Shown here: piece after piece, positions 1 to 46,023 of the stretch
Layout: each line of letters opens with the position of its first letter
Numbering within the stretch: position 1 is the stretch's first letter
Virus record (IMG/VR): IMGVR_UViG_3300022745_000051
Coordinates: 1 to 46,023 of that record
DNA length: 46,023 bases
Reading direction: 5' to 3' (one strand)
Origin: a virus
Program-made: the position numbers and the translations under genes
The notes under the pieces: model-generated
The model's database searches: none
Told to the model about the DNA's origin: nothing
The model's input: only the letters and a program-made list of their open reading frames with translations

Positions 1-392
1 GCGGTGTGCAGGTCTTCGCTAAGAAGAATGCCAGCGGTAAGGCCCGCACTGCTAAGCAGTTGTCGGACTTCTTCACCGCATGTGCTACCGCATTGTCGGG
101 CTTCATCGACGCAACTGCGCCTACTGTCAGCACCCGTGTTCGCACGGCCACTAACACGCTAACCATCACCTTCAGCGAGGCACTCGATACTGGTGTTGTT
201 CCTGCAACGTCTGCCTTCGTTATCACTCCTACTCGTACCGTTACGGCGGTAAGTGTTGTGGGTAGCACGGTTGTGGTTACTGCTACTGGTGTTGTTGCTA
301 CTGATAGCGTGGCTTATACTAAGCCGGCTACCAAGGCTCTCCGCGACCGCGTTGGTAACCAAGTTGCTAGCTTCTCTGGTGTGATCGCCTAA
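1..392 (+). CDS. Ig-like (SwmB/Big-type) virion-associated protein, 5'-truncated
   Basis: This is the 3' part of a gene whose complete version is at 45208-45678. The first codon is cut by the contig end, and the 26 N-terminal residues are missing. The last 90 or so residues have the pattern of a bacterial Ig-like beta-sandwich of the SwmB type: APTVS at the start, then TLTITFSEALDTG, a run of Val/Thr strands, and a closing RVGNQVASFSG. Such domains decorate phage tails and capsids and are thought to bind host surface sugars weakly. It ends in TAATG, sharing a base with the next gene. Against the complete copy it differs by one residue (Ile to Leu). Role as a virion decoration or fibre accessory is inferred from the domain and the neighbouring fibre gene. 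Confidence 0.7.
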   Translation, partial: GVQVFAKKNASGKARTAKQLSDFFTACATALSGFIDATAPTVSTRVRTATNTLTITFSEALDTGVVPATSAFVITPTRTVTAVSVVGSTVVVTATGVVATDSVAYTKPATKALRDRVGNQVASFSGVIA

Positions 393-721
393 TGGGTAAG
401 CGCAGGAAGCATATTCTTGCGCTTATCGAGCAGTCTTGTGGGGCTCTTCCTTATCTAAGGGGAGCCCTCCCAGTAGCTGTTAGGGAAGCTAGGCAGCCAC
501 CTAAACGTATTGGCGACAATGCGCTAGCTGCCTGCTATACACATAGTGGGCGCATTGTAATATGGGTTAAACCTGAGCAGACTGCTGAAGCAGAGCTTGG
601 CTGCGTAGCCCACGAACTAATCCACGCCCTTGCTATATGGCAAGGACGACCATATGAGCATCCTATGATCGATGCAGAAATGCTGGCCGCAGAGGCAGCA
701 CTAGGAGTGCCTATTCTATGA
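392..721 (+). CDS. Small HExxH zincin-like protein (left allele)
   Basis: This 109-residue protein has a basic N-terminus (MGKRRKH) and a central CVAHELIHALAIW segment. HELIH at about residues 75-79 is the HExxH zinc-binding signature of metallopeptidases, preceded by a hydrophobic stretch as in zincin helices. A third ligand is not certain; the Glu/Asp residues in EHPMIDAEMLAAE, 12-20 residues downstream, are candidates. It is joined to the Ig-like gene by TAATG and to the fibre gene by an ATGA overlap, so all three are probably co-translated. It could be a virion-maturation protease, a peptidoglycan- or toxin-directed peptidase, or a catalytically dead fold; the sequence does not decide. 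It differs from the right-end allele (45678-46007) at three residues, with the HELIH region unchanged. No signal peptide is seen. Confidence 0.6.
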   Translation: MGKRRKHILALIEQSCGALPYLRGALPVAVREARQPPKRIGDNALAACYTHSGRIVIWVKPEQTAEAELGCVAHELIHALAIWQGRPYEHPMIDAEMLAAEAALGVPIL

Positions 722-1719
722 CAAGTAAAGCTATTAGTGTAACGGCCGGTGGGGCGGTTAAGGTTGGTATTGGCCCTACTGCGGGGCACTGGAATGGTAT
801 CTTTGTCGATGAAACGACAAAGAAGCTTAGAAGTGCTCAGGTTAATGCTGACGGGGAGTTAATCGTTACTGGGGCAAGTTGGGGTGGTGGGGGTGGGGGT
901 GGTGGCGCACTTGACGGGCTTACGGTGTCCGATATCATCGTTAACCCAACGTCCGCGTATGTAGGAAATCCCAGTGCAACCGGCTATATCCTCGCGTCAG
1001 CGGGAGTCGACTCTACAGCCGGGAACGTAATCGTCACGCTTGCGCAGGTTGTGGATGCGCCTGAAGACATTGGGCTGTGGGTTTCTGACGGCTCCGATGG
1101 CTCTGGCAATACCCTTGTGCACAGGCACCCGGATTACCCAATCGATACGATCATACCGCTAACTACTATTTTCCCAGTGCTCGGCGAGCCTGGAGTTTAC
1201 GTTAGGCCGCTGTCCTATGTAGATGGCGCGACCAGCATCACCATAGGTGATCCAGATTTTAATGCTGATTTCGACAAATACGTCGACTACGTACACACTG
1301 ACACGTTCTACCCCCAGTACGGGAATCCGAGATTTAGCATAGTTAACCCGCTAGGCGCTACCGATAACGGCGGGTCAAGTTTCAAAGTTGGGGTTAGCTC
1401 CATAATATCCTCTGTTGTAAATGCGACAGCCGCAAAACAAGGTAGTTTCAATATCACTAGCGCCATTGTTGAATTCGGTGTGTCGGGGATTGGGGCGTCA
1501 AACAGCTTCGGGAAATTTAGGTTAAGTACTGAAACCGCCGTTGCCCAGGCATCGGACGCTGCGGGCACCAACGTCAGCTCCGTCACCGTAATCCCTACAG
1601 CGGTCACCATCGACACCCTAGCCACCATCCTTCCTCAAGTCCTGACCCAAACCACCGATCCGGCAGTCGCAGGGCAACTGTGGAATAACAGTGGCGTAGT
1701 CATGATTAGCGCAGGTTAA
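718..1719 (+). CDS. Putative tail fibre/spike protein with Gly-rich linker
   Basis: A 333-residue protein rich in Val, Thr, Ser, Asp and Gly, typical of beta-structured phage appendages. Residues 1-55 form a small head domain, residues 56-63 are an unbroken run of eight glycines that should act as a flexible hinge, and the remainder is predicted beta-rich. The C-terminus (DPAVAGQLWNNSGVVMISAG) follows a pattern common at the ends of phage tail and neck-appendage proteins. It starts on an ATGA overlap with the HExxH gene and is followed three bases later by a membrane-protein gene. With the N-terminal fibre anchor at 40893-41585 and the lectin-like protein at 41587-42885 it probably belongs to the adsorption apparatus. 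I do not recognise a catalytic domain, and receptor specificity cannot be inferred. Confidence 0.55.
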   Translation: MTSKAISVTAGGAVKVGIGPTAGHWNGIFVDETTKKLRSAQVNADGELIVTGASWGGGGGGGGALDGLTVSDIIVNPTSAYVGNPSATGYILASAGVDSTAGNVIVTLAQVVDAPEDIGLWVSDGSDGSGNTLVHRHPDYPIDTIIPLTTIFPVLGEPGVYVRPLSYVDGATSITIGDPDFNADFDKYVDYVHTDTFYPQYGNPRFSIVNPLGATDNGGSSFKVGVSSIISSVVNATAAKQGSFNITSAIVEFGVSGIGASNSFGKFRLSTETAVAQASDAAGTNVSSVTVIPTAVTIDTLATILPQVLTQTTDPAVAGQLWNNSGVVMISAG

Positions 1720-1722
1720 ACT

Positions 1723-2109
1723 ATGCAACACTTCCTTTCTCTCTTTCCTCTAGACTATGTGCAGCACGGTCTGCTGTACTTCGTTGTTGGCTTTATTCCT
1801 GCTACGCTGATCCTGCACTGGTTGTATGCAGCAGCCACACACTTCTGGCGCTTGCAGCGAGATGGCACCCTTACTAAGGCCCAACGGCTTAGTGCTGGTC
1901 CCTTGCTTATCCTAGCAGACCTGTGGGATATCGCCTACAACTGGACTTACGGTATCGTCGTCTTCCTTGACGTGACCCGTGATCCTACGTTGTCCCAGCG
2001 CCTGAAGCGATATGCTAAGCAGGGTGACACGCGCAGGGCGAAGATGGCTAAATGGCTCGACGCAAGTCTGCTTGCTAGCCTCGATCCTACTGGTAGCCAC
2101 ATCGACTGA
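1723..2109 (+). CDS. Phage membrane protein, unknown function (lysis region)
   Basis: A 128-residue protein with two clear hydrophobic segments, about residues 13-37 (LLYFVVGFIPATLILHWLY) and 57-84 (LLILADLWDIAYNWTYGIVVF), separated by a basic loop and followed by a charged tail. It lies between the fibre gene and a 3-TM holin and shares a base with the latter (TGATG), which suggests translational coupling in a lysis cassette. It is not a recognisable endolysin, spanin or antiholin: there is no catalytic motif and no lipobox. It might regulate the holin or serve as a second membrane-permeabilising protein. Start ATG 1723 is preceded by a weak AGG Shine-Dalgarno in the end of the previous gene. 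Confidence 0.55.
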   Translation: MQHFLSLFPLDYVQHGLLYFVVGFIPATLILHWLYAAATHFWRLQRDGTLTKAQRLSAGPLLILADLWDIAYNWTYGIVVFLDVTRDPTLSQRLKRYAKQGDTRRAKMAKWLDASLLASLDPTGSHID

Positions 2110-2339
2110 TGGAAGAACATAGCCCTTTCCGCGCCCGGTGGCGCCCGTGGCTAGGTTGGATAGGCTTGAATGTGGTAGCATTCCAGGGAATAGGTCTTCC
2201 TGTCCTGAATGCTATCCTTTCCTTCTTCGGAAGGACTAGCTTACCTTACATGCCCGCGGAACTCTTTTGGGCTAGCTGTGCCGTTACTCTAGGAACAGCC
2301 GGCCTACGTACAATTGACAAACTAAAACAGCCTAAATGA
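2109..2339 (+). CDS. Putative holin, three-TM type
   Basis: A 76-residue protein with an arginine-rich N-terminus (RARWRPWLGWIG) followed by hydrophobic segments at about 16-36 and 50-68. The RPWLGW pattern at the start of the first membrane helix and the small size match the three-helix holin group related to gene-transfer-agent release holins. Holins form lesions in the inner membrane that time lysis. It is coupled to the membrane protein upstream by TGATG and to the ribonucleotide reductase downstream by an ATGA overlap. A second holin of a different class is at 42891-43118, so one of the pair may be an antiholin or pinholin. Family assignment is by pattern from memory. Confidence 0.55.
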   Translation: MEEHSPFRARWRPWLGWIGLNVVAFQGIGLPVLNAILSFFGRTSLPYMPAELFWASCAVTLGTAGLRTIDKLKQPK

Positions 2340-4330: not shown

Positions 4331-4343
4331 TCTAGCGTTATTC

Positions 4344-4382: not shown

Positions 4383-4396
4383 CTATAGACCAATAT

Positions 4397-5320: not shown

Positions 5321-5455
5321 AGAGTCTCGATGAAGTAGACGAGTGTAGAAGCTCTAAGTAAGAGTCTAGTGAGAATAGCCGGTGACGCCGGGTTCTAGAT
5401 AACGACTTAGATCAAAGCTTCATATAGACGGTCCTAGTTGATAGTCTATAGGTAC

Positions 5456-5484
5456 TTGACAACAGATTCGGATTCTGTTATACT
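5456..5484 (+). promoter_or_regulatory. Sigma70 early promoter, third of four (strong)
   Basis: TTGACA at 5456-5461, exactly 17 bases, TATACT at 5479-5484. This is close to consensus and should be a strong host-polymerase promoter, comparable in role to T7 A1-A3. Confidence 0.85.
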
Positions 5485-5509
5485 AGAGTCTGGCGAGTTA
5501 AGAGGGCTC

Positions 5510-5791
5510 GCATCGAAGATGCACAGCGTCTAATAGCGCTTAGCACCTCCGGTGCACAGCCCCTTGACAAGCGGTTCTAGTTATGGTATAGTGTAATCAA
5601 GCTGTAGACAGCGCGAGCTAAGTCTCAGATGCATAGAGTCCTATGGATTCTGTATCTGTGATACGCTTTTGTGTTAAAGTCTAACCGAAAGGTTATAGCC
5701 TTACGGATGGTATAAGTCCATCTTCAAGGGCTGACTTGATGCTCTGCAACGAAGTTGCCTAGCCCTTTAGGGCCGGGTGCATCTTCGATGC
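5510..5791. repeat. 15-bp long-range inverted repeat
   Basis: GCATCGAAGATGCAC (5510-5524) and GTGCATCTTCGATGC (5777-5791) are exact reverse complements 252 bases apart. In the leader RNA they could close a large domain containing several smaller hairpins. Each arm can also fold locally (GCATC/GATGC). Confidence 0.7.
5564..5592 (+). promoter_or_regulatory. Sigma70 early promoter, fourth of four (strong)
   Basis: TTGACA at 5564-5569, exactly 17 bases, TATAGT at 5587-5592. It is the closest promoter to the first early gene and leaves an untranslated leader of about 500 bases. Confidence 0.85.
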
Positions 5792-6003
5792 TAGGTTGAT
5801 AGAAGGCACCTGATCAGGCTACGGAGTGATACCCGCCGGATAATAGGGCCATCCTCGAAGATAGGTTATGGTTCGTATGTGCCTTAGGCCGATAGTATCG
5901 GAGCGCCCTTACAACTGAGAACCTTAGAGGCTATGTCTGGAACCGTCGTTAGACGGGATATGCCAGATAACACCGTTAGGTGCCTAGTCTATCCCTATGG
6001 GCA

Positions 6004-6068
6004 GACTTAAGCGATCATACAATCGATTCCTTAAGTCCGCCTATAGGCGGTTATGTGACCTCGGTCAC
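6004..6068 (+). other. Three consecutive hairpins just before the first early gene
   Basis: GACTTAAG (6004-6011) pairs with CTTAAGTC (6030-6037), with CGAT/ATCG nested inside. This is followed by CCGCC-TATA-GGCGG (6037-6050) and GTGAC-CTCG-GTCAC (6055-6068). They end 26 bases before the start codon of the first early gene and may stabilise or process the leader, as RNase III sites do in T7. Confidence 0.55.
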
Positions 6069-6094
6069 TCTTCTACAACCCGATAGGACTAAAC

Positions 6095-6622
6095 ATGAAA
6101 GCTTCCCTCGCACAATCTGCGATCATCACTGATGCTTCTAAGATCGGTGAACTGATCGACAGCATCCAAAAGGCCGGCGCTAAGCTGGATCGTATGATCT
6201 GGCAAGGCGCTGTCTCGGCGATCGCTCACCTGGATCAGCATGGTGATGTGACGCTGGTGAATCGACTCTATACGGCCATGCCTAAGGGCAGCCGTGCTCT
6301 TGCGCTGGCTGAGTATCTGCTCGCCTTCGCCAAGGTTCGGGCGAATGATGATCCGAAGAATAAGAAGGCGACTCCCTTCCTGTACGCCAAGGACAAGGAC
6401 ACCAAGCTGGAGAAGGCGCTGACGACTCCGTGGTATGACTTCCGTAAGGAAAAGTCTCCGGATGAAGTCTTCGACTTTGGCGCTATGCTGGCTAAGCTCA
6501 TTGAAAGGGCTGAGGCGGCGCAGGCCAATGGCAAGCCCGTGAAGGGTGCCGAGAGTATCAGTGCCATCCGTAAGGCGCTGGTTTCTGTCGGCGACGATTC
6601 GTCGATGGGCGATCCCGACTAA
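6095..6622 (+). CDS. First early protein, unknown function
   Basis: A 175-residue soluble protein and the first gene behind the host promoters, the place where T7-like phages keep proteins that disarm the host. Residues 15-75 look helical (GELIDSIQKAGAKLDRMIWQ, then HGDVTLVNRLYTAMPKGSRA); residues 80-120 are rich in Lys and Asp, and the C-terminus is acidic. It is not an Ocr-like DNA mimic, since lysine is too frequent. Proteins of this general look occur in other podoviruses but I cannot name a function. ATG 6095 is preceded by GATAGGA. It is followed by a strong intrinsic-terminator-like hairpin with a T9 run, so it may be expressed at a higher level than the genes downstream. Confidence 0.75.
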   Translation: MKASLAQSAIITDASKIGELIDSIQKAGAKLDRMIWQGAVSAIAHLDQHGDVTLVNRLYTAMPKGSRALALAEYLLAFAKVRANDDPKNKKATPFLYAKDKDTKLEKALTTPWYDFRKEKSPDEVFDFGAMLAKLIERAEAAQANGKPVKGAESISAIRKALVSVGDDSSMGDPD

Positions 6623-20962: not shown

Positions 20963-21589
20963 ATGACTAAAGAAACAGATCCTACTGGTAAGAGCCCTCA
21001 TAGTCCTGGGGCTAAGCTCGATGCAGGTAAGCGACGAGATGGCCTTGTGCTGCTCGCGTTCTCTCGGGCGCTAGCTGAAGTATCCAAGGTTGGTACTTAC
21101 GGCGCCACTAAGTACACAGATAATGGCTGGACCGAAGTACCTAATGGTGTCAACAGGTACACGGACGCTATGCTCAGGCATATGATCGCCGAGGGTTCGG
21201 GAGAACATTCGGACAAAGATACCGGTCTGCTCCACGCCGCCCATGCCGCCTGGAATGCGCTGGCCCGGCTGGACCTGATGATCCGGGAGTCTGAGAAGGC
21301 CCCGGCAAGGCCCCTGGCGGCCCCGGCAAGCGCCGATCATTACGTCTGTGTAGGTAGGGGAGGGGTCTGGATTAAAAACACAGGGAAGGCCCCGGCTGGG
21401 GTGGACCCCGAGGCGCAAGTGGATGTAATTTTTTGCAACAACTCCTCGACCGTTTCTAGGAGGGCTAAAGAGGTTCCTTGGGAAATTGTTGACGGCCCCA
21501 TAGGGGTTAACTACTGGCGCCTAACCAATACGGAAGCATCCTTAGGTTTCTATAAGGCAGCAACAGATTATCTAGGGAATTCCGCATGA
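20963..21589 (+). CDS. dATP/dGTP diphosphohydrolase N-terminal-like protein with extra C-terminal region
   Basis: Residues 15-105 (PGAKLDAGKRRDGLVLLAFS, VSKVGTYGATKYTDNGWTEV, RYTDAMLRHMIAEGSGEHSD, LLHAAHAAWNALARLDLM) match the domain found at the N-terminus of phage dATP/dGTP diphosphohydrolases, an all-alpha nucleotide-pyrophosphatase-like fold. Residues 106-155 are a GC-rich Ala/Pro segment followed by an unrecognised C-terminal domain. It lies beside dUTPase, so a role in adjusting dNTP pools is likely. No PurZ-like gene is present, so there is no sign of 2-aminoadenine DNA. The 5' leader has a hairpin over the ribosome binding site. Confidence 0.7.
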   Translation: MTKETDPTGKSPHSPGAKLDAGKRRDGLVLLAFSRALAEVSKVGTYGATKYTDNGWTEVPNGVNRYTDAMLRHMIAEGSGEHSDKDTGLLHAAHAAWNALARLDLMIRESEKAPARPLAAPASADHYVCVGRGGVWIKNTGKAPAGVDPEAQVDVIFCNNSSTVSRRAKEVPWEIVDGPIGVNYWRLTNTEASLGFYKAATDYLGNSA

Positions 21590-26292: not shown

Positions 26293-27827
26293 GCAATAGA
26301 CCTAAGACAGGTGAAGAGCACTGGAGGGCGCTGGGTACTACGCACGATCAGTTCCTCCGGCGAGCAGAGACGCTTGCTGACCTAACCCTTCCTCATCTTG
26401 TGAGGGATCAAGGTCAGCCTAGCGAACAGAATGAAGATGCTACGGACTACATGAGCATTGGCGCAGTAGCCGTTAACTCTCTCGTAGGTCGGATGCTTAC
26501 TGCACTGTTCGGTAAGGCGTTCTTTAAGATTAACCCAAGTCAAGCGGAGATTCAACAGCTTCAGTCAGCCGGTATCCCTGGTGATACGATTGAGCAGATG
26601 GTAGCAGAGGTCGAGCGAGAGTGCATGGCCAGCATGGATAACGGGGACTCCCGTATCCGGCAGACCCTAGTCACTATGCTCCAGCATGATATCGCACTAG
26701 GCCAAGTCTGCCTTGATCTAACCGATCCTGATGACCTGTGCATTGTGCCGATTAGGTGTTGGCGCATTAAGCGCAACCGCAAGGGCACGATGGCTAAGCT
26801 CGTGGTATGTGAGTGCATGCCTGGGACTGAGCTAGAACCGGACGCTCTTGAGGCAGCTAAGGCAGGTGGGCTTAACCTGCGAGACGATGAAGACGAGGTC
26901 AAGCTGTACCGAGTTGTATGCCGTCTCCCTGGTGGCAAGTTCCAGCTAGACCAGTACGTCAATGACATCAAGCTTCCTGATGCTTTCACTACGGTGTTCG
27001 CTAAGGAGTCCGATGTTACTCTGCGTGTAGTTGGTTCGTCTGTGTCTCCGGGCCAGGACTATTGCACAGGCCACGCAGAGATGCATCTTCGTGACTTACT
27101 GGCAGCAAGCGTTCTGGCTAAGTGCGTCACTGAGGGCGCAGTGATTGGATGTGAGGTTCGCTACGCTATCGACAAGAGCAGCGGAACCCGTGCCCAAGAT
27201 TGGAACTCGTCCAAGAACGGTGAAGCAATCGATGGTAGTCCTAGCTCTATTGCCCCAGTCACAGCGAACAATAGCCAAGCAGTTCAGATCGCCTCAGCAC
27301 AGTTGCAAGCAGTGGAAGCACGCATCAACCGAGCCTTCTTGGTTACGTCAGGCGCAGTGCGAGACTCTGAACGGACTACGGCAGAGGAAGTTCGAGCACT
27401 GCTCAGGGAACTGACCGAAGGACTTGGCCCATGGTTCACGGCATTCGGCCCTGATGCTCAGGCACCCCTAGCCCGCTGGCTTATCCGTCGTCGTTGGAAG
27501 TCGTCTAAGGGTATCGACCTGAAGATTACTACCGGCATCGATGCCTTGTCTAGGCAAGGAGAAGCGACGGCCTTGATCGAGGCTATGCAAGACTTGTCAG
27601 TAGCTAATGGCCTGTCTCCGACTATGCAGGCACGTCTCAAGGCCCAGGACTTCGCTAATGCTGTGGGCCGGGGGCGCGGTGTAGACCTAGCTAAATACTT
27701 CCTCAGCGATCAACAAGCTCAGGCCGCAGCCGACCAAGCCCGACAAGGTGAAGTCAACCAAGCTAACGCAATTGCGGCAGGACAAGCCGCAGCTAATTCA
27801 GCACAACAAGGAACCTTAACACAATGA
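26289..27827 (+). CDS. Portal protein (head-tail connector)
   Basis: A 512-residue protein of the T7 gp8 type, forming the dodecameric portal through which DNA is packaged and ejected. Typical segments are the N-terminal WRALGTTHDQFLRRAETLAD, ADLTLPHLV, GAVAVNSLVGRMLTALFG, and near residues 365-390 RTTAEEVRALLRELTEGLGP, which is the clip/wing helix conserved in T7-like portals. The C-terminus is Gln/Ala-rich, corresponding to the barrel. T7 gp8 has 536 residues. Coupled to genes on both sides by ATGA. Confidence 0.93.
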   Translation: MSNRPKTGEEHWRALGTTHDQFLRRAETLADLTLPHLVRDQGQPSEQNEDATDYMSIGAVAVNSLVGRMLTALFGKAFFKINPSQAEIQQLQSAGIPGDTIEQMVAEVERECMASMDNGDSRIRQTLVTMLQHDIALGQVCLDLTDPDDLCIVPIRCWRIKRNRKGTMAKLVVCECMPGTELEPDALEAAKAGGLNLRDDEDEVKLYRVVCRLPGGKFQLDQYVNDIKLPDAFTTVFAKESDVTLRVVGSSVSPGQDYCTGHAEMHLRDLLAASVLAKCVTEGAVIGCEVRYAIDKSSGTRAQDWNSSKNGEAIDGSPSSIAPVTANNSQAVQIASAQLQAVEARINRAFLVTSGAVRDSERTTAEEVRALLRELTEGLGPWFTAFGPDAQAPLARWLIRRRWKSSKGIDLKITTGIDALSRQGEATALIEAMQDLSVANGLSPTMQARLKAQDFANAVGRGRGVDLAKYFLSDQQAQAAADQARQGEVNQANAIAAGQAAANSAQQGTLTQ

Positions 27828-28567
27828 GTGATACGCCTAACCCCGCAGCGTCTCCTTCCCCTGCACCTGCCCCGGTAGCTGCTGCGCCTGTTGCAGCGCC
27901 GCCTATCCAGGCCCCTGCGCCTGTAGCCTTCCAACCTAAGCAAAGCTATGTCTACGATATGACTGGCGATGCAGGTATGGACTTGTTCCTTACCCATGCA
28001 GGTGAGGCTGGCCTTGGTCCAGACCATCCAGCTATGGTTGCTGCTGCAAAAGGAGACTTCTCTGTCGCAATGCCCCTGCTTGGTGGTACTGCTACTGGGA
28101 AGGCAGCAGTCAGCCTAGCTGAAACCTATGTCCGTAATGCTGCCTCTCGTGCGGCGGCTGCTCAAGCTGCTGCCACCGAGGCAATCCACAAGGCTGTCGC
28201 CAAGGAAGGCGTCGATGGCAAGGCCCGCTGGGCTGCCGTTCAAGAGTGGGTCAAGGAGAAGGCTGATCCTGCCGAGAAGGCGAGCATCAATGCGGTGCTT
28301 GCTCAAGGTGGGTATGCAGCCAAGCTCCTTGCCCAGTCCCTGGCCCAGCGATATGACGCCTCTAATCCCCCTCGGGAAGGGAAGCGCGCTGCTGATCCAA
28401 GCCTGGGTGGAGGTCCTGCCCCGGTTACTGACAACGTGCTCAGCGCCGAGCAATACAAGAACGAGCTTAATCGCCTGCACCGTCAGTATCCTGGCCGTAA
28501 CACTGAAGAGCTTCCGGGTTACCGGGAACTCTCCAAGCGTTACATGGCAGGTAGGCTTAGGCGCTGA
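27824..28567 (+). CDS. Capsid scaffolding/assembly protein
   Basis: A 247-residue protein with a Pro/Ala-rich N-terminus (residues 1-40, repeats of APA/PVAA) and a central helical part, ending in a charged motif (YKNELNRLHRQYPGRNTEEL, then RELSKRYMAGRLRR). The basic C-terminal helix is how gp9-type scaffolds bind the major capsid protein. Shorter than T7 gp9 (307). It is located between portal and capsid genes as expected, and followed by a promoter-hairpin element. Confidence 0.85.
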   Translation: MSDTPNPAASPSPAPAPVAAAPVAAPPIQAPAPVAFQPKQSYVYDMTGDAGMDLFLTHAGEAGLGPDHPAMVAAAKGDFSVAMPLLGGTATGKAAVSLAETYVRNAASRAAAAQAAATEAIHKAVAKEGVDGKARWAAVQEWVKEKADPAEKASINAVLAQGGYAAKLLAQSLAQRYDASNPPREGKRAADPSLGGGPAPVTDNVLSAEQYKNELNRLHRQYPGRNTEELPGYRELSKRYMAGRLRR

Positions 28568-28659: not shown

Positions 28660-29652
28660 ATGGCACTTGATGATACCTTCACCGTAGACTACGGCGGCCA
28701 AGAAGGCACTAGCGGTGCAGTTGATGCACTGCACATTGAACAGTATGGTGGCGAGGTCGAACTGACCATTGCTCGCCGGTCTGTCCTTGAGAATTTCTTC
28801 CCTACCCGCCCTCTGCGCGGCTCCAGCGTTGCCATTAAGAAGGCAGTTGGTTCGAGCACGCTCCAGAAGGTTACCCCTGGTGCGCGTAACGATGGTACGA
28901 AGCATGCTAAGGGCAAGAACAGCGTCGATGTTGACACTGTCATCCTGGCTCGGGCAATCGTTCCTATCCTCAGCGAGTTCCAGACGGACTTCAACCATCG
29001 CATGGCCCTAGGTCAAGAGCACGGCAAGACTATTGCCAAGTTCCATGACAAGACGCTGTTCACGGTTGGCATCCGCGCTGCTCTGGCTACTAGCACGTTC
29101 TACTCGGGCTCGCCCACTGGCTTCAGTGGTGGCTCGCAAGTGACGCTTGCTGGTTCGACGGACTACCAAGACCCTGCCCTTCTGTACCAGGCTATCGTTG
29201 ACCTTCTGGTTAAGATGGAGAAGAAGGACGTGGACCCGGTGGCTGATGGCGTTGTCATTAGCGTGCGACCGGATGAGTTCGCTGTTCTCGAACAGTCGGA
29301 GTTCATCATCAATAAGGAGTACATCACCAGCGACGGTAATCGTCTGCAAGGTGCTTCGCTCCTGAAGGCTCGCGGTGTTCCGGTTGTCTCCAGCAACAAC
29401 TTCCCGGCGCTTACCAACATCACTACTGGTGTTGATGTGGTGGACCTGTACGGCTCGACTTATGAGGTCGATGCTTCTAAGGTCATCGTCACCGCCTTTG
29501 CGCCCAAGGCTGTGCTCGCTGCGGAAACCATTCCGCTGACGCACAAGGTGTGGTGGTCGGATGACTACCTGCAATGGTGCATCGACTCCTACTTTGCCAA
29601 CGGCGCAGCGCCGGACCGTGCTGAGTGGGCTGGTGCTATCCTTCTCCCGTAA
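28660..29652 (+). CDS. Major capsid protein
   Basis: A 330-residue HK97-fold capsid protein (T7 gp10A is 345). The N-terminal ALDDTFTVDYGGQ, the E-loop region around FFPTRPLRGSSVAIKKAVGS, the spine-helix segment ILSEFQTDFNHRMALGQEHG, and the C-terminal ETIPLTHKVWWSDDYLQWCI fit the T7-like pattern. Codon choice is biased to C-ending codons and the Shine-Dalgarno AAGGAGAG is strong, both as expected for the most abundant protein. It has its own promoter and its own terminator. No gp10B-like frameshift extension is visible. Confidence 0.93.
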   Translation: MALDDTFTVDYGGQEGTSGAVDALHIEQYGGEVELTIARRSVLENFFPTRPLRGSSVAIKKAVGSSTLQKVTPGARNDGTKHAKGKNSVDVDTVILARAIVPILSEFQTDFNHRMALGQEHGKTIAKFHDKTLFTVGIRAALATSTFYSGSPTGFSGGSQVTLAGSTDYQDPALLYQAIVDLLVKMEKKDVDPVADGVVISVRPDEFAVLEQSEFIINKEYITSDGNRLQGASLLKARGVPVVSSNNFPALTNITTGVDVVDLYGSTYEVDASKVIVTAFAPKAVLAAETIPLTHKVWWSDDYLQWCIDSYFANGAAPDRAEWAGAILLP

Positions 29653-36125: not shown

Positions 36126-39100
36126 ATGGATTCAATACGCTCCGCGCTAGTTCGCGCAATCTATAGCCAGGAGTCTAACTCCGGCCAAGTCGATACCTCG
36201 ACCCCGAACTATGCCGGGGCGCTTGGTCCCATGCAAGTTACGAAGCCAACTTTTGTGGGGATGCAGAACAATGGCTTGATCCCACAAGACTGGAACTGGG
36301 AAGATCCTGAGCATAGCACACGAGCAGGCATCGCTCTGCTCAATAGCTACATGGATAAGTACGGCGATGATCCCGCCTTAGCTGCTGCTGCCTACTATGG
36401 TGGTGAGAAGGCCGTTAAGGATGGGCAGATCGTTGACTTCGGTGATCGTAAGAACCCTAAGGCACCGAGGACTTCTGAGTACGCTCAGATGATCCTGTCC
36501 CGTATGGGTCTGAAGCCAGGAGGTAAGCAGGCAAAGGTTCCTGCTAAGCTGCTGCCCTCACAGACCCCTGATGAAATGCTGGCTGAGGCTATGCCTGGGC
36601 CGGTAGGGCAAAGCGGCTCTTCTGCTATTCCCGTTATCTCTGATACTGCTCCGAAGATTACAGCTAATCCGCAAGCAGCGGTAGATCAGGCCAAAGCTGC
36701 TGAGAGCAGTGCACAGAAAGAAGCACAGTTCGAGCAAGACCGTTCGGTGCTAGACATTGCGCAAGATAGCTTCATGCACCAAGGCGTGCTCGGAGCTATC
36801 CTAAAGGCAGCAGCTAAACCAGCCTTTAAGCCGGACCCTACTTGGGCTCTCGATCCTAAGCTACTTAATGGTATGTCTGAAGATGAGCAACAGGAACTCA
36901 AGGATGCTTCTTCTAAGGAAGAGGCAGACTGGGCCATGTTCGACATCAAGGACAGGCGCGACATGGAAGAGCGCATCGGCCTAAGTGGTGCTGGTGCGGG
37001 TATCCTAGGAAGCATGATTGCTGGGTTGCCTGAGGGATACCTGCTCGGCCTCGGTGCCGTCAAGGGCATGGAGCTTGCTAAGGTTGGTGCAACCCAGCTT
37101 GCTGCTCAAGGTAGGGCTGGTGCCGCCTGGGCGGCGGCGGCTGCCGAGAACGTTGGTGGCAATATCGCTGGGACCGCTGCTGCGCAAGCAGCACAAGGTC
37201 GATTCAATACTGAGGACTATGCTACAGCAGTAGCGATGGGTCTGGTGATTACGCCACTAGCCGCCCTTGGTTCTCTGTCTCACGCTTCCTCAGTTCGTGC
37301 GGCAGAGGATGCAGCAAAGATGCGTGCAGATGCAGCAGCTAAGCTAGAAGAGCGTAGCAGGAACGCGGCAGCTAATCTGCCGCCTGATGCTACGCCAGAG
37401 CAAGTCGCTGCTGAGATGACTCGCCTTGAGCAGGCTGAGCTTGCCCAGGCGACGGAAATCAAGAAGGCGTCTAGGAAACTGATTGACGCTCAAACGGATG
37501 AGACAGGCCGGCCTCTGCCCACCGCTGACGAAGAAGCGGCAGTTAAAGCAGCGCAAGAAGATATTAAGCCTGTAGATGTTGCAGAGCGTCCGCCAATCAA
37601 GCAGGAAGAGACGGCTGCAATTAACCAGGGAGACAGCGTTAAGGCTGAGGAAGTTAAGTCGGAAGTAATTCCTACGGCTTCTGTCAGGACCGAGAAGCTG
37701 CGGACTGATGCAGAAATCCTCGCTGTGACTAAGCCTGACGGTACGCCAGCAGTCACCAGCAGTTTCACTCTGGCTTCTCGTCTTGACGAGTTGGCTGGGA
37801 GTAAGCTGAAGGAAGTTGGCTTGTTTGCCAAGCGCCTTCGTGAAGCGCTCAAAGATGACAGCATCAAGGTCTATGTATCTGACACCGAAGGACTGAGGGC
37901 CCTTAGTCGAGGCACAGCAACCCGTTCGCACTACATGCCCAGCGATCATGCTATCTATCTGGATAGCCGCAGCATGATGGTCGGCCAGGAGTGGGTCACG
38001 CTTCATGAAGCAGGTCATGCACTCACTGAGTACAAGATCGCCTACGGTAAGGCCAATCCTGACAGCGCTCATGGCAAGATCGTTACACAGATGGAGGCTA
38101 TTCGTAATATAGCTAAGACGGAACTCGATGGGCCTAACGGCGCTAAGTTCAAGACTGATGGCGTAGCTCCTTATCTGCTCGACAATGTGAGCGAGCTTAA
38201 TGCCGGGCTGTGGTCTACTCGCAGGGGTATGGGTCAGTTCGGTGATCTGCTGCGCAGTATCCCCTACCAAGGGACTACGCTGCTTAGCAAGTTCGTTGGT
38301 GCTGTGCAGAAACTGCTAGGGATTGCTACCAAAGAGCGGCCCTTGTTTCTTCAGGCACTGGGTCTGAGCGAGAAGTTGATCGATACTCCTCTACATGTGT
38401 CTGTCGTAGGCAGGGATGGTAAAGCGTTATCTGTTAGGCAGGCACCCAGTGATTTCCCAGGAGACACCCGCGCCAAGGAACTTGGTATAGATCTACTCCC
38501 CGGAGCAACCGCTAACGAGAAGGCAGAGGCACGCGTAATCCGCAGCCTCTATAGTAAGGCTGAAACACCTGCTGCACCATGGAACAAGGTAGACCCCGAG
38601 CGCCTAAAGACCCTAGCAAAGAACAAGTTGTTCGATGTAGCAAGCACCAGTGTGCACCTGCTAAGCAGCAAGAATCCTATTTTACGCATGGTTGGCGCAA
38701 CCTTGGTGGAGAACCCTGCCGGTGCTGCAGGGCGTGGGCAGACAGCTTCTATTGGCTCATGGTTGAACTATCGGAAAGCCCTGGGCAACTTCCTACCTGA
38801 GCTTCAGAATGCCTATGGCGTATGGCGCCGGGCCAACGGTGGCTCAGTACTAGAGGATGTCTTTGGGGGTAAGCGCTGGGCGCAGTTCAATCGGTCTGTA
38901 GCTGAGGAGATTGAATCTCGCGGGCGGGGTAGTAGTGCTCATGCAGACCCAAGCATCCAGGCTGCAGCCAACACGATTGAAGGTGTGTTTGAGCGTTTGC
39001 GCAAGATGCAGATTGACTCGGGAACACTAGGCCATCAAGCCCTGCCTGAGTCAAGTCGCGGCTACATGCCGCACCGCATGAGTGCGGAGAAGGTGCGCAA

Positions 39101-40841
39101 CCTGACCACGCAACAGCGAGAGCAACTGCATGCTGCTATGGCAGATCAGTTCGCAACCATCGAAGGGTTCGATCCCACGTTCTCGGCAGAGCTTGCTTCT
39201 AAGTACCTGTCGAGGATTGAAGATCGCGCCACAGGTGGGTGGACTGTTCCTATCAATCCGCATGACCCAGCGGCTGCTGACATCGTTGAGCAAGCGATGA
39301 GGGCTGCTGGCCTTAGTGGTGAAGAGCTGCGGTCCGCAGTGCAACGGTTTACACGTGGTGCTGCTAGCCACACAAAGGGCCGCCTCAATCTTGATCTTCT
39401 TGAGGATCAAGGTGGCTGGCGTATGCTGGACCTGTTCGAGACGGACATGGCTAACCTTGTTCGTCAGCAGGCACTGCGAGTAGCTGGTGAAGCCGCTCTG
39501 GCGGATCACGGTGTCCTTGGTAAGCCGGGGCTGCGGTTGCTTCGGCAAGCGGCTGCTCTGGGCAATGAGGGCGTGCGTGCTACGGCAGACGAGCTTGCCG
39601 CCTTCGACCAAGTAGCCGCTGAGTTGCTTGGAGAGCCATTCGGTACTCACGGTACTAAGTGGCTCGACCGGGCAATGCAGGTTACTTCGCTCGCCCGCCT
39701 AGGTGGTATGGGCTTTACCCAGTTTGCTGAAGCCTTGAATGGCATCTGGCATGTTGGTGCAACCCGTGCCTTCGAGAGTGTCGGTGGCGTGCTGCGTCTT
39801 CGCAATGAAGCTAAGGCATTGGCCCGTGGAGAGAAGGTTGACAACCCTCTGCTTCATAGCATCGAGGCTTATAGCGGTGTCGAATTCGGGGCAGAAAGTT
39901 ATAAGATTAAGTTCCCGTTCGACAACGGTAGCCTAGAGTATAACCAGTACGGCAGGGACAGCGTGACTCTGGTGGATCGCTTGCTTCGCGGTGGAACACA
40001 CCTGCAAGGCAAGCTAAGCCTGTGGCGCGGTATCCACGCCGCCCAGCACCGTGGTATGGCTGAACAGATCGTGGCTAAGGCAGTTCGATACATCAGCGAA
40101 GGAAAGAGCGATACAGCTCTGGCTGATATGGGTATTGGCCCTGGGCTAGTGGCTAGGTTGAAGGACGACATACAAACCGGTGCGGCTGTGTGGGATAACG
40201 GTAGGCTGACAGAGTTCGACATTGCACGCATCCGAGACAAGGATGCAGCTAACGAGTTCGTTCAGGCTATCCATCGTGGCACAAACCAGATCATCCAGGG
40301 TACATTCACTGGTGAGACAGGTAAGTGGGCGCATGATGGGTTGCTTAGGTTGCTGACCCAGTTCCGTACATTCAGCATCACGAGCATGGAGAAGCAGTGG
40401 GCTAGGCAGCGAGGTAACTACGGCACCGCTGGTGCGCTAGGTATCTTGCTTGGTACTATGTCAATTGCTTGGCCGATCTACGTAGCACGTGTGTATGCCT
40501 CTAGCATAGGTAAGTCTAACCAGCAAAGCTATCTAGATAAGCAACTCACGCCTGCGCAGATCGCTAGAGCAACGTTGAACTACGTTGGTATCTCTGGTCT
40601 GAGTGGCGATCTACTCGATGGCCTGACTGCTCTCACAGGAGCAGGCAAGGTTACTGGTGGCCGCGCTGCGGCAGAGACGGGCTTCATTGGAACAGTGGTT
40701 GCACCTGCTGCTGGTGTTGCGGATGACATCTGGAAGGGATTACAGAACAGTAAAAATGGGACAAATCCCCACGACCTAATCAAATCCTTGCCGTTCAGCA
40801 AGCTACCTATACTACAGCAGGGCATAAACGCGCTGCAATAG
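36126..40841 (+). CDS. Giant ejection protein with lytic transglycosylase and embedded HExxH domain
   Basis: A 1571-residue counterpart of T7 gp16 (1318). Residues 1-125 are a soluble lytic transglycosylase: catalytic Glu16 in IYSQESNSGQ, then LGPMQVTKPT and AAAYYGGEKAV; it opens the peptidoglycan for the ejection channel. Residues 280-390 contain hydrophobic helices (GAGAGILGSMIAGLPEGYLL) and 390-500 a charged coil. Residues 570-720 hold a second, unexpected module: WVTLHEAGHALTEY, an HExxH zinc signature at 627-631, with Glu690 in NVSELNAG as a possible third ligand. T7 gp16 has no such motif to my knowledge; it recalls metallopeptidase modules of large polyvalent phage proteins. The C-terminal half (830-1571) is helical and would form the channel. 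Confidence 0.88.
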   Translation: MDSIRSALVRAIYSQESNSGQVDTSTPNYAGALGPMQVTKPTFVGMQNNGLIPQDWNWEDPEHSTRAGIALLNSYMDKYGDDPALAAAAYYGGEKAVKDGQIVDFGDRKNPKAPRTSEYAQMILSRMGLKPGGKQAKVPAKLLPSQTPDEMLAEAMPGPVGQSGSSAIPVISDTAPKITANPQAAVDQAKAAESSAQKEAQFEQDRSVLDIAQDSFMHQGVLGAILKAAAKPAFKPDPTWALDPKLLNGMSEDEQQELKDASSKEEADWAMFDIKDRRDMEERIGLSGAGAGILGSMIAGLPEGYLLGLGAVKGMELAKVGATQLAAQGRAGAAWAAAAAENVGGNIAGTAAAQAAQGRFNTEDYATAVAMGLVITPLAALGSLSHASSVRAAEDAAKMRADAAAKLEERSRNAAANLPPDATPEQVAAEMTRLEQAELAQATEIKKASRKLIDAQTDETGRPLPTADEEAAVKAAQEDIKPVDVAERPPIKQEETAAINQGDSVKAEEVKSEVIPTASVRTEKLRTDAEILAVTKPDGTPAVTSSFTLASRLDELAGSKLKEVGLFAKRLREALKDDSIKVYVSDTEGLRALSRGTATRSHYMPSDHAIYLDSRSMMVGQEWVTLHEAGHALTEYKIAYGKANPDSAHGKIVTQMEAIRNIAKTELDGPNGAKFKTDGVAPYLLDNVSELNAGLWSTRRGMGQFGDLLRSIPYQGTTLLSKFVGAVQKLLGIATKERPLFLQALGLSEKLIDTPLHVSVVGRDGKALSVRQAPSDFPGDTRAKELGIDLLPGATANEKAEARVIRSLYSKAETPAAPWNKVDPERLKTLAKNKLFDVASTSVHLLSSKNPILRMVGATLVENPAGAAGRGQTASIGSWLNYRKALGNFLPELQNAYGVWRRANGGSVLEDVFGGKRWAQFNRSVAEEIESRGRGSSAHADPSIQAAANTIEGVFERLRKMQIDSGTLGHQALPESSRGYMPHRMSAEKVRNLTTQQREQLHAAMADQFATIEGFDPTFSAELASKYLSRIEDRATGGWTVPINPHDPAAADIVEQAMRAAGLSGEELRSAVQRFTRGAASHTKGRLNLDLLEDQGGWRMLDLFETDMANLVRQQALRVAGEAALADHGVLGKPGLRLLRQAAALGNEGVRATADELAAFDQVAAELLGEPFGTHGTKWLDRAMQVTSLARLGGMGFTQFAEALNGIWHVGATRAFESVGGVLRLRNEAKALARGEKVDNPLLHSIEAYSGVEFGAESYKIKFPFDNGSLEYNQYGRDSVTLVDRLLRGGTHLQGKLSLWRGIHAAQHRGMAEQIVAKAVRYISEGKSDTALADMGIGPGLVARLKDDIQTGAAVWDNGRLTEFDIARIRDKDAANEFVQAIHRGTNQIIQGTFTGETGKWAHDGLLRLLTQFRTFSITSMEKQWARQRGNYGTAGALGILLGTMSIAWPIYVARVYASSIGKSNQQSYLDKQLTPAQIARATLNYVGISGLSGDLLDGLTALTGAGKVTGGRAAAETGFIGTVVAPAAGVADDIWKGLQNSKNGTNPHDLIKSLPFSKLPILQQGINALQ

Positions 40842-42890: not shown

Positions 42891-43118
42891 ATGGTTCCAG
42901 ATACTGCCAAAGCTGCCCCGCCTCTGGTGGTGTCCATAGCTACACACTTCATGGGTGTGCCTCTTCAGGACTGGGTAATGCTTGTCACGATAGCCTATAC
43001 ACTGGTGCTACTGGCAAGCAAGCTCCCTAGAGCGATAGCGGCGATCAAGTATGTAATTGCACTCATTCGGGGTAAGCCCGTTCAGGAGATTAAGATTGAG
43101 CAAGAAAGCCGCCACTGA
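42891..43118 (+). CDS. Class II holin (T7 gp17.5-like)
   Basis: A 75-residue protein between fibre and terminase genes, exactly where T7 has gp17.5. The central THFMGVPLQDWVMLVTIAYT segment, with LVLLASKL after it, forms one long or two short membrane helices, followed by a basic tail (RAIAAIKYVIALIRGK). GGAAG precedes ATG 42891. It would permeabilise the inner membrane at lysis. The small-terminase start lies within its last codons. A different holin type is present at 2109-2339. Confidence 0.75.
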   Translation: MVPDTAKAAPPLVVSIATHFMGVPLQDWVMLVTIAYTLVLLASKLPRAIAAIKYVIALIRGKPVQEIKIEQESRH

Positions 43119-43422
43119 AGACGAACTTGGTGACCTGCATAGACAGGTTGCTATTGCCCTGAAGACTATGCTTACCCCGGTGCAGATCGAGGGAGAGCTG
43201 GGCACCACTCACGACAAGGGAGCAGTAGCACTCGCTATTGCCTTCCTTAAGAACAACGGCATCACTGCTAGTGTAACTCAGAATGATGCCCTTGCTGAGC
43301 TTAAGCAAGCCCTGGTTAATCGTGGCCGCAACCCCCAACGGGTTCGGGCCATTGAGTTGCAGGACGCTGCTGATAAGCTGACGCGCGACCTAGAAGTGGG
43401 GAACTATAGTTCACTGCAATGA
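43096..43422 (+). CDS. Small terminase subunit (DNA maturase A)
   Basis: I start it at TTG 43096, which has CAGGAGA seven bases upstream; the frame opens earlier, at TTG 43057, without a ribosome binding site. The 108-residue product (SKKAATEDELGDLHRQVAIA, then NNGITASVTQNDALAELKQA) is helical with an N-terminal region for DNA binding, and corresponds to T7 gp18 (89). It recognises concatemer DNA and delivers it to the large subunit. It overlaps the holin by 23 bases and the large subunit by ATGA. Confidence 0.82.
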   Translation: MSKKAATEDELGDLHRQVAIALKTMLTPVQIEGELGTTHDKGAVALAIAFLKNNGITASVTQNDALAELKQALVNRGRNPQRVRAIELQDAADKLTRDLEVGNYSSLQ

Positions 43423-45200
43423 GAGAGTCCGATGAAGATGCCGCCATAAGGTGGGAGAAGCTCCGCCTCCTGCAAGAGCACTATAGGCATTTCACAACTT
43501 TCCTAGAGGCTGCAATGGGTGAGCTAGGCTTCACCCTATCGGATATCCAAGAAGATATCGGCCTCTTCATGGAGCTTGAGCCAGGGGATATTATGGTCCA
43601 GGCTCAACGGTCCCAGGCCAAGACCACTATTGCTGCGTGCTTTGGTGTCTGGTCCCTTATACATGCACCACATTACCGCATCATTGTGGTTTGCGCTGCG
43701 GGTACACTGGCATCAGACATTAGCACGCTGATGGTTAGGCTCGTATTGAACATGCCTGAGCTGTCCTGCTTGTGCCCTGACCGCAATGCAGGCGACCGCG
43801 GAAGCACGGAGGCGTTCGATGTTCACCACTCGCTGAAGGGCATCGATAAGTCTCCAAGCATATCGTGCATGGGCATCGACTCTAACGTGCAGGGTAAGCG
43901 GGGAGACATCCTCCTTGCCGATGACGTAGAGAGTACGAAGAACTCCGCTACCGCGGTTCAGCGCGAGAAGCTTCTGCACCTAACAAAGGACTTTGCGTCC
44001 ATTGTTCAGCACGGTAGAACCATCTGGCTTGGCACACCACAGAGCCGTGAGTCCATTTACAACGCCCTGCCTGGACGGGGTGTGAAGGTCCGCATCTGGC
44101 CTGGACGGTATCCTACCACGACACAGCTAACGCACTATGGTGCCTTCCTTGCTCCGCTTATTCAACGGAGGATCAAGGCTGACCCTACGCTGTGCTCAGG
44201 TGGGGGAGTATTGCAGGATCAAGGCAAGCCACTGGACCTGGTTCTGCTAGATGAGGAAGCCCTTCAGAAGAAAGAGCGTACCCAGGGTAAGGCATACTTC
44301 CAGCTTCAGCACATGCTGAACACGGCGCTGTCTGATGAAGACCGCTTCCCGCTGAAGGCGTCTAACCTGATCTACGTGAGCAACGTTAGTCCGGTTGGCG
44401 TACCTACACAACTTGTGCGGGGGATGGATGCAGCTTACCTAACGCCCATCATGGCTAATGGTAAAGCATACCACCTTATGCGCCCACAGCAGATGGGTGC
44501 GGGTATCGAGCGAGCTGGCTTCGGCCTGGTCACAATCGATCCGGCAGGTGGTGGTGCCAATGGTGACGAGACAGGAATGGCAGCAGGCTACTCCGTAGCA
44601 GGCAACATACATGTCCCTTGGGTAGGCGGGTTCCCAGGTGGCTATGAGCTGCACAAGCTACACCTTATTAGGGATACGCTTGTTGAGCTTGTACGCAAGG
44701 GATTTCCTTTACGCAAGATTATCATCGAAAAGAACTTTGGTTACGGTGCATTTCAGGCCGTGCTAGAGCCTGTCCTTAGAGCTATAGAGAAGGAGCTAGG
44801 GCCAGTAGGGATTGACGAGGATTACGTAACTGGGCAGAAAGAGCGAAGGATTATCGACACCCTTGAGCCAGTTGTTTCTCGCGGTTCCTTGATTATACAC
44901 GATACAGCGGTGACGGCTAACAACCTGACCCTAGAGTATCATTCTCCCGAGAAGCGCGGTACGTACTGCGTATTTCACCAGCTTGCAGGTATCTCGTCTG
45001 TCCGTGATGCACTCGTGCATGACGATAGGCTTGATGCGCTGGAGGCGCTTGTGCGCCATCTGCAACCACAGCTATCCGACAAGGATAGCAAACGAGACGA
45101 TCAGGAGCATCTACGCCGACTCCTGGCAGCAGTCCGCCCACCGGGCGGTAGGCCACCCAGCCGTGCTCGTTCTATATTGGACCGTTACCGGCGAAAGTAA
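43419..45200 (+). CDS. Large terminase subunit (DNA maturase B)
   Basis: A 593-residue packaging motor like T7 gp19 (586). The ATPase part has a Walker A-like RSQAKTT (64-70) and Walker B GDILLADDVE. The nuclease part has acidic blocks at VTIDPAGGGANGDETGM, IIIEKNFGYG, and LVHDDRLDALEALV. The C-terminus is basic (SRARSILDRYRRK). It packages the phage concatemer and cuts the ends; T7-type enzymes create direct terminal repeats, which is why the non-identical ends of this contig are better explained by assembly. Confidence 0.95.
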   Translation: MRESDEDAAIRWEKLRLLQEHYRHFTTFLEAAMGELGFTLSDIQEDIGLFMELEPGDIMVQAQRSQAKTTIAACFGVWSLIHAPHYRIIVVCAAGTLASDISTLMVRLVLNMPELSCLCPDRNAGDRGSTEAFDVHHSLKGIDKSPSISCMGIDSNVQGKRGDILLADDVESTKNSATAVQREKLLHLTKDFASIVQHGRTIWLGTPQSRESIYNALPGRGVKVRIWPGRYPTTTQLTHYGAFLAPLIQRRIKADPTLCSGGGVLQDQGKPLDLVLLDEEALQKKERTQGKAYFQLQHMLNTALSDEDRFPLKASNLIYVSNVSPVGVPTQLVRGMDAAYLTPIMANGKAYHLMRPQQMGAGIERAGFGLVTIDPAGGGANGDETGMAAGYSVAGNIHVPWVGGFPGGYELHKLHLIRDTLVELVRKGFPLRKIIIEKNFGYGAFQAVLEPVLRAIEKELGPVGIDEDYVTGQKERRIIDTLEPVVSRGSLIIHDTAVTANNLTLEYHSPEKRGTYCVFHQLAGISSVRDALVHDDRLDALEALVRHLQPQLSDKDSKRDDQEHLRRLLAAVRPPGGRPPSRARSILDRYRRK

Positions 45201-45207: not shown

Positions 45208-45678
45208 ATGAAACAATCTGACCTCCCATCTCCTGGCAAGATTCGTATTGCCCATGAACTGCGTGCCCGTGCTGCTGAAGCTATCAGCGGTGTGCAGGTC
45301 TTCGCTAAGAAGAATGCCAGCGGTAAGGCCCGCACTGCTAAGCAGTTGTCGGACTTCTTCACCGCATGTGCTACCGCATTGTCGGGCTTCATCGACGCAA
45401 CTGCGCCTACTGTTAGCACCCGTGTCCGCACGGCTACTAACACGCTGACCATCACCTTCAGTGAGGCACTCGATACTGGTGTTGTTCCTGCTACGTCTGC
45501 CTTCGTGCTCACTCCTACCCGTACCGTTACGGCGGTCAGTGTTGTGGGTAGCACGGTTGTGGTTACTGCTACTGGTGTTGTTGCTACTGATAGCGTGGCT
45601 TATACTAAGCCGGCTACCAAGGCTCTCCGCGACCGCGTTGGTAACCAGGTTGCCAGCTTCTCTGGTGTGATCGCCTAA
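45208..45678 (+). CDS. Ig-like (SwmB/Big-type) virion-associated protein, complete
   Basis: ATG 45208 follows AAGG by five bases; the 156-residue product has a basic/helical N-terminus (residues 1-65: SPGKIRIAHELRARAAEAIS and AKQLSDFFTACATALSGFID) and one C-terminal Ig-like domain of about 90 residues (APTVSTRVRTATNTLTITFS, then EALDTG, closing NQVASFSGVIA). It begins eight bases after the large terminase stop and heads the group Ig-like protein, HExxH protein, fibre/spike. The N-terminal helices may anchor it to the virion. The same gene reappears truncated at the left end. I cannot tell capsid decoration from tail accessory. Confidence 0.75.
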   Translation: MKQSDLPSPGKIRIAHELRARAAEAISGVQVFAKKNASGKARTAKQLSDFFTACATALSGFIDATAPTVSTRVRTATNTLTITFSEALDTGVVPATSAFVLTPTRTVTAVSVVGSTVVVTATGVVATDSVAYTKPATKALRDRVGNQVASFSGVIA

Positions 45679-46007
45679 TGGGAAAGCGCAGGAAGCATAT
45701 TCTTGCGCTTATCGAGCAGTCTTGTAGGGCTCTTCCTTATCTAAGGGGAGCCCTCCCTGTAGCTGTTAGGGAAGCTAGGCACCCACCTAAACGTGTTGGC
45801 GACAACGCTCTAGCTGCCTGCTACACGCATAGCGGGCGCATTGTGATATGGGTTAAGCCTGAGCAAACTGCTGAAGCAGAGCTTGGTTGTGTAGCCCACG
45901 AACTAATCCACGCCCTTGCTATCTGGCAAGGACGACCGTATGAGCATCCTATGATCGATGCAGAAATGCTGGCCGCAGAAGCGGCGCTAGGAGTACCTAT
46001 TCTATGA
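45678..46007 (+). CDS. Small HExxH zincin-like protein (right allele)
   Basis: This 109-residue allele of the gene at 392-721 carries the unchanged CVAHELIHALAIW motif and differs at three residues (Gly to Arg at 17, Gln to His at 35, Ile to Val at 40), none of them in the presumed zinc site. About 21 base substitutions against three amino-acid changes indicate purifying selection, so the gene is functional in both strains. Coupled by TAATG to the Ig-like gene and by ATGA to the next gene. Confidence 0.6.
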   Translation: MGKRRKHILALIEQSCRALPYLRGALPVAVREARHPPKRVGDNALAACYTHSGRIVIWVKPEQTAEAELGCVAHELIHALAIWQGRPYEHPMIDAEMLAAEAALGVPIL

Positions 46008-46023
46008 CAAGTAAAGCTATTAG
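46004..46023 (+). CDS. Start of tail fibre/spike gene, cut by contig end
   Basis: The first six codons (MTSKAI) plus two bases of the gene seen in full at 718-1719 are present, starting in an ATGA overlap. Confidence 0.85.

Follow-up and report, generated by a model that had tools for sequence, protein, structure and literature searches.

A 109-residue HExxH protein of a T7-like phage as a candidate divergent SprT-like protease of the lysis module

The window analyzed here, by which we mean the entire stretch of 46,023 nucleotides that makes up the IMG/VR virus record IMGVR_UViG_3300022745_000051, is a T7-like phage by its gene content. It contains matches to thymidylate synthase, DNA polymerase exonuclease, ligase, scaffold and capsid, and the closest relative of its terminase large subunit (TerL) is that of the Curvibacter phage P26059B (57% identity). 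The two ends of the record (1-737 and 45287-46023) overlap over 737 bp, of which 704 bases (96%) are identical; they are unequal strain variants that close the assembly circle across micro-diversity, and one region is present twice. Because of this overlap, the small gene studied here occurs at both ends of the record, and the gene downstream of it is complete solely at the left end (Table 1).

Table 1. Features of the window discussed in the text.
Feature	Position (nt)	Strand	Remarks
109-aa HExxH ORF, right-end allele	45678..46007	+	ATG start; HELIH nt 45897-45911; H90 nt 45945-45947
109-aa HExxH ORF, second strain allele (left end)	392..721	+	97% aa identity; HELIH nt 611-625
Upstream 156-aa ORF	45208..45678	+	phrog_13588 N-terminus; Big_5-like C-terminus (under Pfam cut-off)
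Upstream 156-aa ORF, left-end allele	3..392	+	5' end missing
Downstream 333-aa ORF	718..1719	+	weak similarity to relatives' fibre-region ORFs; no family match
128-aa ORF	1723..2109	+	hydrophobic stretches; no Pfam/PHROG match; homologue in two relatives
76-aa holin-like ORF	2109..2339	+	phrog_3427, E 5e-9; PF11351 under cut-off
Scaffold	27824-28567		
Capsid	28660-29652		
1571-aa internal virion (ejection) protein	36126..40841	+	SLT domain at residues 3-99; HEAGH at residue 627 (nt 38004-38018)
75-aa T7-type holin	42891..43118	+	PF10746 above cut-off; phrog_920
Terminase large subunit (TerL)	43419..45200	+	anchor gene for the search for relatives

The gene encodes a protein of 109 residues in which HELIHALAIW occupies residues 74-83 and HELIH residues 74-78 in both alleles. 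Its ATG overlaps the TAA stop codon of the upstream 156-aa ORF by one base, and its own stop codon overlaps the start of the downstream 333-aa ORF in an ATGA arrangement. A first-pass annotation, made from the DNA letters alone, had described this ORF with its overlaps to both neighbors, and also two strain alleles that differ at about 21 bases and share an unchanged zinc motif. Both descriptions were borne out: the alleles are the two ends of the record, and they differ at exactly 21 positions within the ORF, 18 of them synonymous and three nonsynonymous (G17R, Q35H, I40V). The low dN/dS of 0.046 and the mostly synonymous differences argue that the 109-aa protein is real and constrained; computation thus supports purifying selection on this ORF. 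Simple hydropathy analysis revealed neither a signal peptide nor a membrane segment, which argues that the protein would be made in the cytoplasm. A homologue of the upstream 156-aa ORF was found after TerL in most relatives of the phage, and no relatives of the downstream 333-aa ORF were found among viral contigs.

By itself, HExxH is weak evidence in this window because four ORFs of 60 aa or more contain it, namely the two alleles of the small gene, the ejection protein and a 64-aa ORF that is probably spurious. The HEAGH sequence of the ejection protein aligns with HExxH in all four relatives that cover the site, and several other relatives have HExGH in an upstream ORF that is at least about 1000 aa long. 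Judged from these alignments, HEAGH is apparently a separate, conserved site in a virion protein and no part of the small gene. The first-pass annotation had counted two candidate zincins in the virion part of the genome; the small protein is better placed in the lysis module, as set out below.

Direct searches with the 109-aa protein detected no close homologues in phages (tblastn), in viral contigs (searched with a degenerate pattern as well) or in genome contigs, no match among PDB sequences, and nothing above threshold in Pfam, PHROGs or NCBIfam. Since these direct searches were without a homologue, we tested the conservation of the HExxH motif via the relatives of the phage. A profile of 31 SprT-like ORFs from these relatives, from which the window protein was left out, found both window alleles (E 7.9e-5 and 8.6e-5; 18.5 bits) and the next window ORF at an E-value of 9.4, and in this respect upheld the initial description of a small stand-alone zincin. 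Alignment of the two alleles with 23 relatives by hhalign gave an E-value of 1.6e-6 and a probability of 90% over residues 36-108. The first-pass annotation had staked its proposal on conservation of HELIH in homologues; H74, E75, H78 and also H90 are invariant across the 25 aligned rows. The HExxH-x11-H spacing of the window protein recurs in 29 of the 31 profile hits, the exceptions being L056 and L028. When the window protein was shuffled 1000 times with residues 70-83 kept intact, none of the shuffles reached its score with either of the two zincin profiles used in this study (SprT-like profile: 18.7 bits for the window protein, 15.1 for the best shuffle), and 91 HExxH ORFs from outside the family scored at most 9.8 bits, compared with 18.7 bits for the window protein. 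These profile scores raise its HExxH motif above chance.

The relationship is nevertheless distant. Identity of the window protein to its SprT-like relatives amounts to 12-24%, and it has neither the conserved Q that follows HExxH nor the HGxxF motif kept by most relatives. H90 aligns with the invariant histidine at the usual x11 spacing, the G and F of HGxxF are absent, and D94 and E96 are also candidates for the third ligand. A C-terminal zinc ribbon is common in SprT; the window protein ends about 30 residues past HExxH and has none, and neither do the relatives from lysis cassettes. The nearest relative as judged from the adjacent Ig-like protein (64%) is L054; its SprT-like protein also gives the best single-sequence match to the window protein, with an E-value of only 0.16. 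The Pfam SprT-like family (PF10263; gathering score 25.6 bits) gave no match to the window protein at E-values up to 1 or 10. The nearest relatives pass its threshold (L054, 27.3 bits; L042, 37.7 bits; L064, 31.0 bits), as do six of the seven SprT-like proteins found first, L013 falling below. Because the window protein lies below the Pfam threshold, we do not file it as a SprT-like member; its sequence indicates a protein that is SprT-like in kind and most likely a divergent cousin.

A second family of small zincins, typified by phrog_1233, competes for this assignment. A profile of six such proteins gave the window protein 19.6 bits (E 2.6e-5), slightly above the 18.5 bits of the SprT-like profile, and the window protein shares the QGR and HAL/HAV sequences around the motif with these proteins; the match to the PHROG entry phrog_1233 had E-values of 0.29 and 0.32. 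The window protein could thus be a zincin of this type whose third ligand is acidic (D94 or E96), and which arrived in its slot by chance and has a role outside lysis. The phrog_1233-type match is confined to the strand and HExxH part, however, and ends at about residue 88, short of the third ligand, whereas the SprT-like match extends to residue 108; representatives such as those of L106, Macromonas phage BK-30P and Bordetella phage BB8 differ further by an acidic C-terminal motif and by their gene positions. In the T7-like contigs L058, L059, L065, L106 and L107, the phrog_1233-type gene lies upstream of TerL and not after it, and elsewhere it is found between DNA polymerase and exonuclease (BB8), beside an M15 peptidase, or beside terminase genes. 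Gene position and a match that runs through the C-terminus favor the SprT-like set, and we consider an affiliation with the phrog_1233 type rather unlikely. The T7-like relatives that carry the phrog_1233-like gene have no SprT-like gene (L106/L107, 1340-1660; L058, 5154-5474; L065, 5136-5477).

An AlphaFold2 model of the window protein, built with 24 alignment rows that included the SprT-like relatives, reached a pLDDT of 88.9 and a pTM of 0.84. It comprises a helix (residues 3-18), three strands (28-31, 46-51 and 54-59), a helix that bears the motif (65-83) and a final helix (90-104); a model from the single sequence had the same order of elements at a pLDDT of 60. Among solved structures, the protease domain of human SPRTN (6mdw, 6mdx), a PF10263 protein that shares HExxH and the downstream histidine, ranked first with Foldseek and VIA-align (query TM 0.73, Z 10.9, rmsd 3.0-3.1 over 97-99 residues), although with a weak Foldseek E-value of 0.061. 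This structural match is partly circular because the model was fed with SprT-like rows; by sequence, the profile of the relatives matches SPRTN at an E-value of 1.6e-10. The predicted model thus gives a minimal zincin fold that corresponds to the SprT/SPRTN core, in a protein of about 100 residues that, unlike SPRTN, has no zinc ribbon or DNA-binding part. Next came the minigluzincin selecase (Z 8.7) and yeast Wss1 (5xbv; Z 8.2), which together with jannalysin (selecase and jannalysin from Methanocaldococcus; 4qhj, 4jix) are minimal zincins of similar size (Z 7.7-8.7). They differ from the window protein in being cellular and in having no sequence match to it, and the context of their third ligand is another one. 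The remaining zincins among the structure and PDB matches, some of them named toxins, aligned only over the general zincin core and offered no lead.

To place the gene in its genomic setting, we collected relatives through two TerL searches of viral contigs and from named phage records, and labeled the genes after TerL with local profiles. Our counts refer to the 71 loci in which 1.5 kb or more follow TerL (22 shorter loci and L028, which has no such TerL, were excluded); some of these loci are near-copies (the 72 rows of the TerL tree represent 59 different sequences), and the counts are therefore not independent. L008 and L021 are apparently one phage. The SprT-like gene is present in 29 of the 71 loci: 25 combine it with lysozyme, Rz and Rz1, one with lysozyme, and three (L042, L054 and L064) hold it alone. 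Among the other loci, 36 possess lysozyme, Rz and Rz1, two lysozyme and Rz, two lysozyme only, and two none of these genes. In every one of the 25 loci with the complete gene set, the SprT-like gene has lysozyme on one side and Rz on the other. Its start lies inside the lysozyme stop codon in eight of the 25 full cassettes, and the start of Rz lies inside its stop codon (-4) in 14 of 24. The lysozymes of the relatives are hydrophobic near the N-terminus, like SAR endolysins (23 of 27 reach a mean hydropathy of 1.6 or more), and the SprT-like proteins have no comparable segment (0.18-1.72). In L010 and L011, no common start codon occurs near the lysozyme stop, and the SprT-like frame extends uninterrupted a long way into the lysozyme gene; translation may begin at a rare start codon, or a frameshift may fuse the two products.

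On the TerL tree, the SprT-like label requires 11 changes, seven of them forced by well-supported branches; the gene is accessory and often gained or lost. Since it is absent from 42 of the 72 rows and requires 11 gains or losses, lysis does not generally depend on it. The TerL of the window forms a long branch whose placement on this tree is unsure. As in L042 and L064, the small gene of the window follows TerL and an Ig-like gene. A search that started from the SprT-like proteins of L042 and L064 yielded 26 loci, 11 of which had a lysozyme-profile match in the fetched stretch; the other 15 had none in the fetched stretch and represent varied settings or stretches that were cut short. Outside the T7-like lineage, the lysozyme and SprT-like genes overlap in L134, are separated by one ORF in L132, and lie about 0.5 kb apart in L141; Pfam confirmed lysozyme (Phage_lysozyme) in all three contigs and the SprT-like domain in L134 and L132. 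ORFs beside the SprT-like gene in L132 and L134 had been considered as PF11351-type holins and were dropped when Pfam gave no confirmation.

The window itself possesses two holin-like genes, and we recognized no endolysin or spanin in it. Across the whole record there was no match to Phage_lysozyme (PF00959), Amidase_2 (PF01510), M15_4 (PF13539), GH108 (PF05838) or M15_3 (PF08291), and Pfam and PHROG scans of the ORFs examined, which included part of the small ones, found no ordinary endolysin. Profile searches yielded nothing under an E-value of 0.09 for Rz and Rz1 and no match for the lysozyme profile, a crude lipobox scan produced no convincing o-spanin, and the only SLT domain is that of the ejection protein. 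Scans of the 109-aa protein against Pfam, PHROG and NCBIfam gave no match to a muralytic domain. The PHROG label "endolysin; inhibits RNA polymerase" on the gene at 20963-21589 is probably misleading; its Pfam domain is dATP/dGTP diphosphohydrolase, and we rejected it as an endolysin candidate. The records of L042, L054 and L064, all three of them partial, also gave no lysozyme match, whereas each of five other records searched gave one. On the TerL tree, lysozyme is missing from four of 30 SprT-like carriers and from two of 42 non-carriers, a suggestive difference in numbers too small to test; one of these non-carriers, L062, ends soon after the Ig-like gene. The lysozyme-less carriers require three changes on the tree, two of them forced.

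We interpret the product of the window ORF as a lysis-module mini-protease of a divergent SprT-like kind that would act late on host or envelope proteins, and we put the probability of this reading at about 0.5. Computation on the sequences supports its remote homology, the invariant HExxH and downstream histidine of the alignment, and the cassette position in the relatives; zinc binding, proteolysis, a role in lysis and a site of action are what we infer. The gene would be read late in a terminase-fibre-holin operon via the stop/start overlaps with both neighbors. The predicted zinc ligands are H74, H78 and probably H90, and E75 would activate water. The protease would cut host (or phage) proteins and thereby aid cell breakdown; it would do so in the cytoplasm ahead of holin triggering, or on envelope proteins after the holin has opened the membrane. 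The coupling to lysozyme and Rz in the relatives argues for a role in lysis, and the presence of the SprT-like gene in loci without lysozyme or Rz argues for a substrate of its own.

How far such a protease might stand in for a missing lysozyme is a related question, and the first-pass annotation had suggested that the protein replaces a missing lysis enzyme. The position of the gene and the lack of a recognized endolysin agree with this suggestion, but the SprT-like gene stands beside lysozyme in most relatives, and we therefore regard it first as a partner within the lysis module and at most as a lysozyme substitute in a few genomes, where replacement is possible. It is conceivable, though unlikely, that some T7-like phages lyse their host by means of a protease instead of a lysozyme; the window protein would then be a lysin that cuts proteins and so weakens the envelope after the holin has fired, with envelope proteins or peptide bridges as examples of targets, and would have been retained when lysozyme and spanins were lost. 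A slightly more doubtful proposal makes it the endolysin of the phage proper: set free from the cytoplasm by the T7-type holin, this peptidase would cut the peptide bridges of peptidoglycan in place of the lost lysozyme. The holin, the missing lysozyme and spanin matches in the record and the three further lysozyme-less carriers agree with it. Those three records are partial, however, an endolysin of an unrecognized type may exist among the window ORFs without matches, SprT-like enzymes cut proteins, and we know of no HExxH SprT-like enzyme that is muralytic.

Other settings for the enzyme are less probable. The SPRTN protease domain is the closest solved fold and the gene lies just after terminase, so that a protease stripping proteins off the phage DNA before or during packaging comes to mind; we judge this very unlikely, as the window protein has no DNA-binding or zinc-ribbon extension and the relatives' gene is coupled to lysozyme and Rz rather than to terminase. 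The least probable reading is among those first proposed from the letters, a virion- or fibre-linked adsorption peptidase or a maturation protease. A fibre-like gene does lie directly downstream in the window, L042 and L064, and a fibre gene adjoins in L054, L029 and P26059B, but fibres come and go, and most relatives have none among their lysozyme, SprT-like and Rz genes, in contrast to the uniform placement of the SprT-like gene in complete cassettes. A maturation role found no footing either, as the gene has no link to those for capsid or scaffold, which lie about 16 kb away in the window.

The only cultured phage we found with the cassette is P26059B (KY981272), a T7-like phage with a SprT-like HExxH gene (0045) directly after lysozyme. 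In contrast to the window, it keeps lysozyme, Rz and Rz1, and its protein retains HEMIHQLQ and HG..F. Gene 0045 (KY981272 40496-40693; L003 4997-5194) is annotated as a shortened hypothetical protein of 65 aa, but its frame is open further upstream, as far as the coding region of lysozyme, and specifies a complete SprT-like domain. A term search of the P26059B paper found neither SprT nor a metallo-protein named (PMC5964084). The SAR endolysin-Rz-Rz1 cassettes of the phages Percy, ERS and JG068 occupy the same slot after TerL and contain no zincin, whereas the window has no recognized lysozyme and spanins.

SprT-like metallopeptidases have been reported for other phages, including gp83 of LHTSCC, gp75 of Adephagia, gp24 of Acinetobacter phage Loki and proteins of jumbo phages; within the published excerpts available, none is placed in a lysis cassette, and gp24 of Loki belongs to the replication module. 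In the excerpts concerned, gp83 of LHTSCC is listed as toxic and bactericidal, with filament formation (PMC7474061), gp75 of Adephagia as not toxic (PMC11373665), and the authors of a jumbo-phage study suggest that such proteins cleave host proteins (PMC7824862). A search of the open-access literature found no paper that describes the lysozyme-SprT-like-Rz-Rz1 order. This coupled order is kept in many T7-like phages and has parallels in three other contigs, which suggests that a protease is an additional component of lysis by phages of Gram-negative bacteria; if true, many small unnamed ORFs would gain a function, and a novel type of lysis protein would be defined.

A segment of about 1.8 kb in the window (4330-6095) has no plus-strand ORF of more than 60 aa, and repeated TTGACA-like and TATA-like motifs are visible by eye near 5290-5600; it probably represents the genome end and the early promoters.
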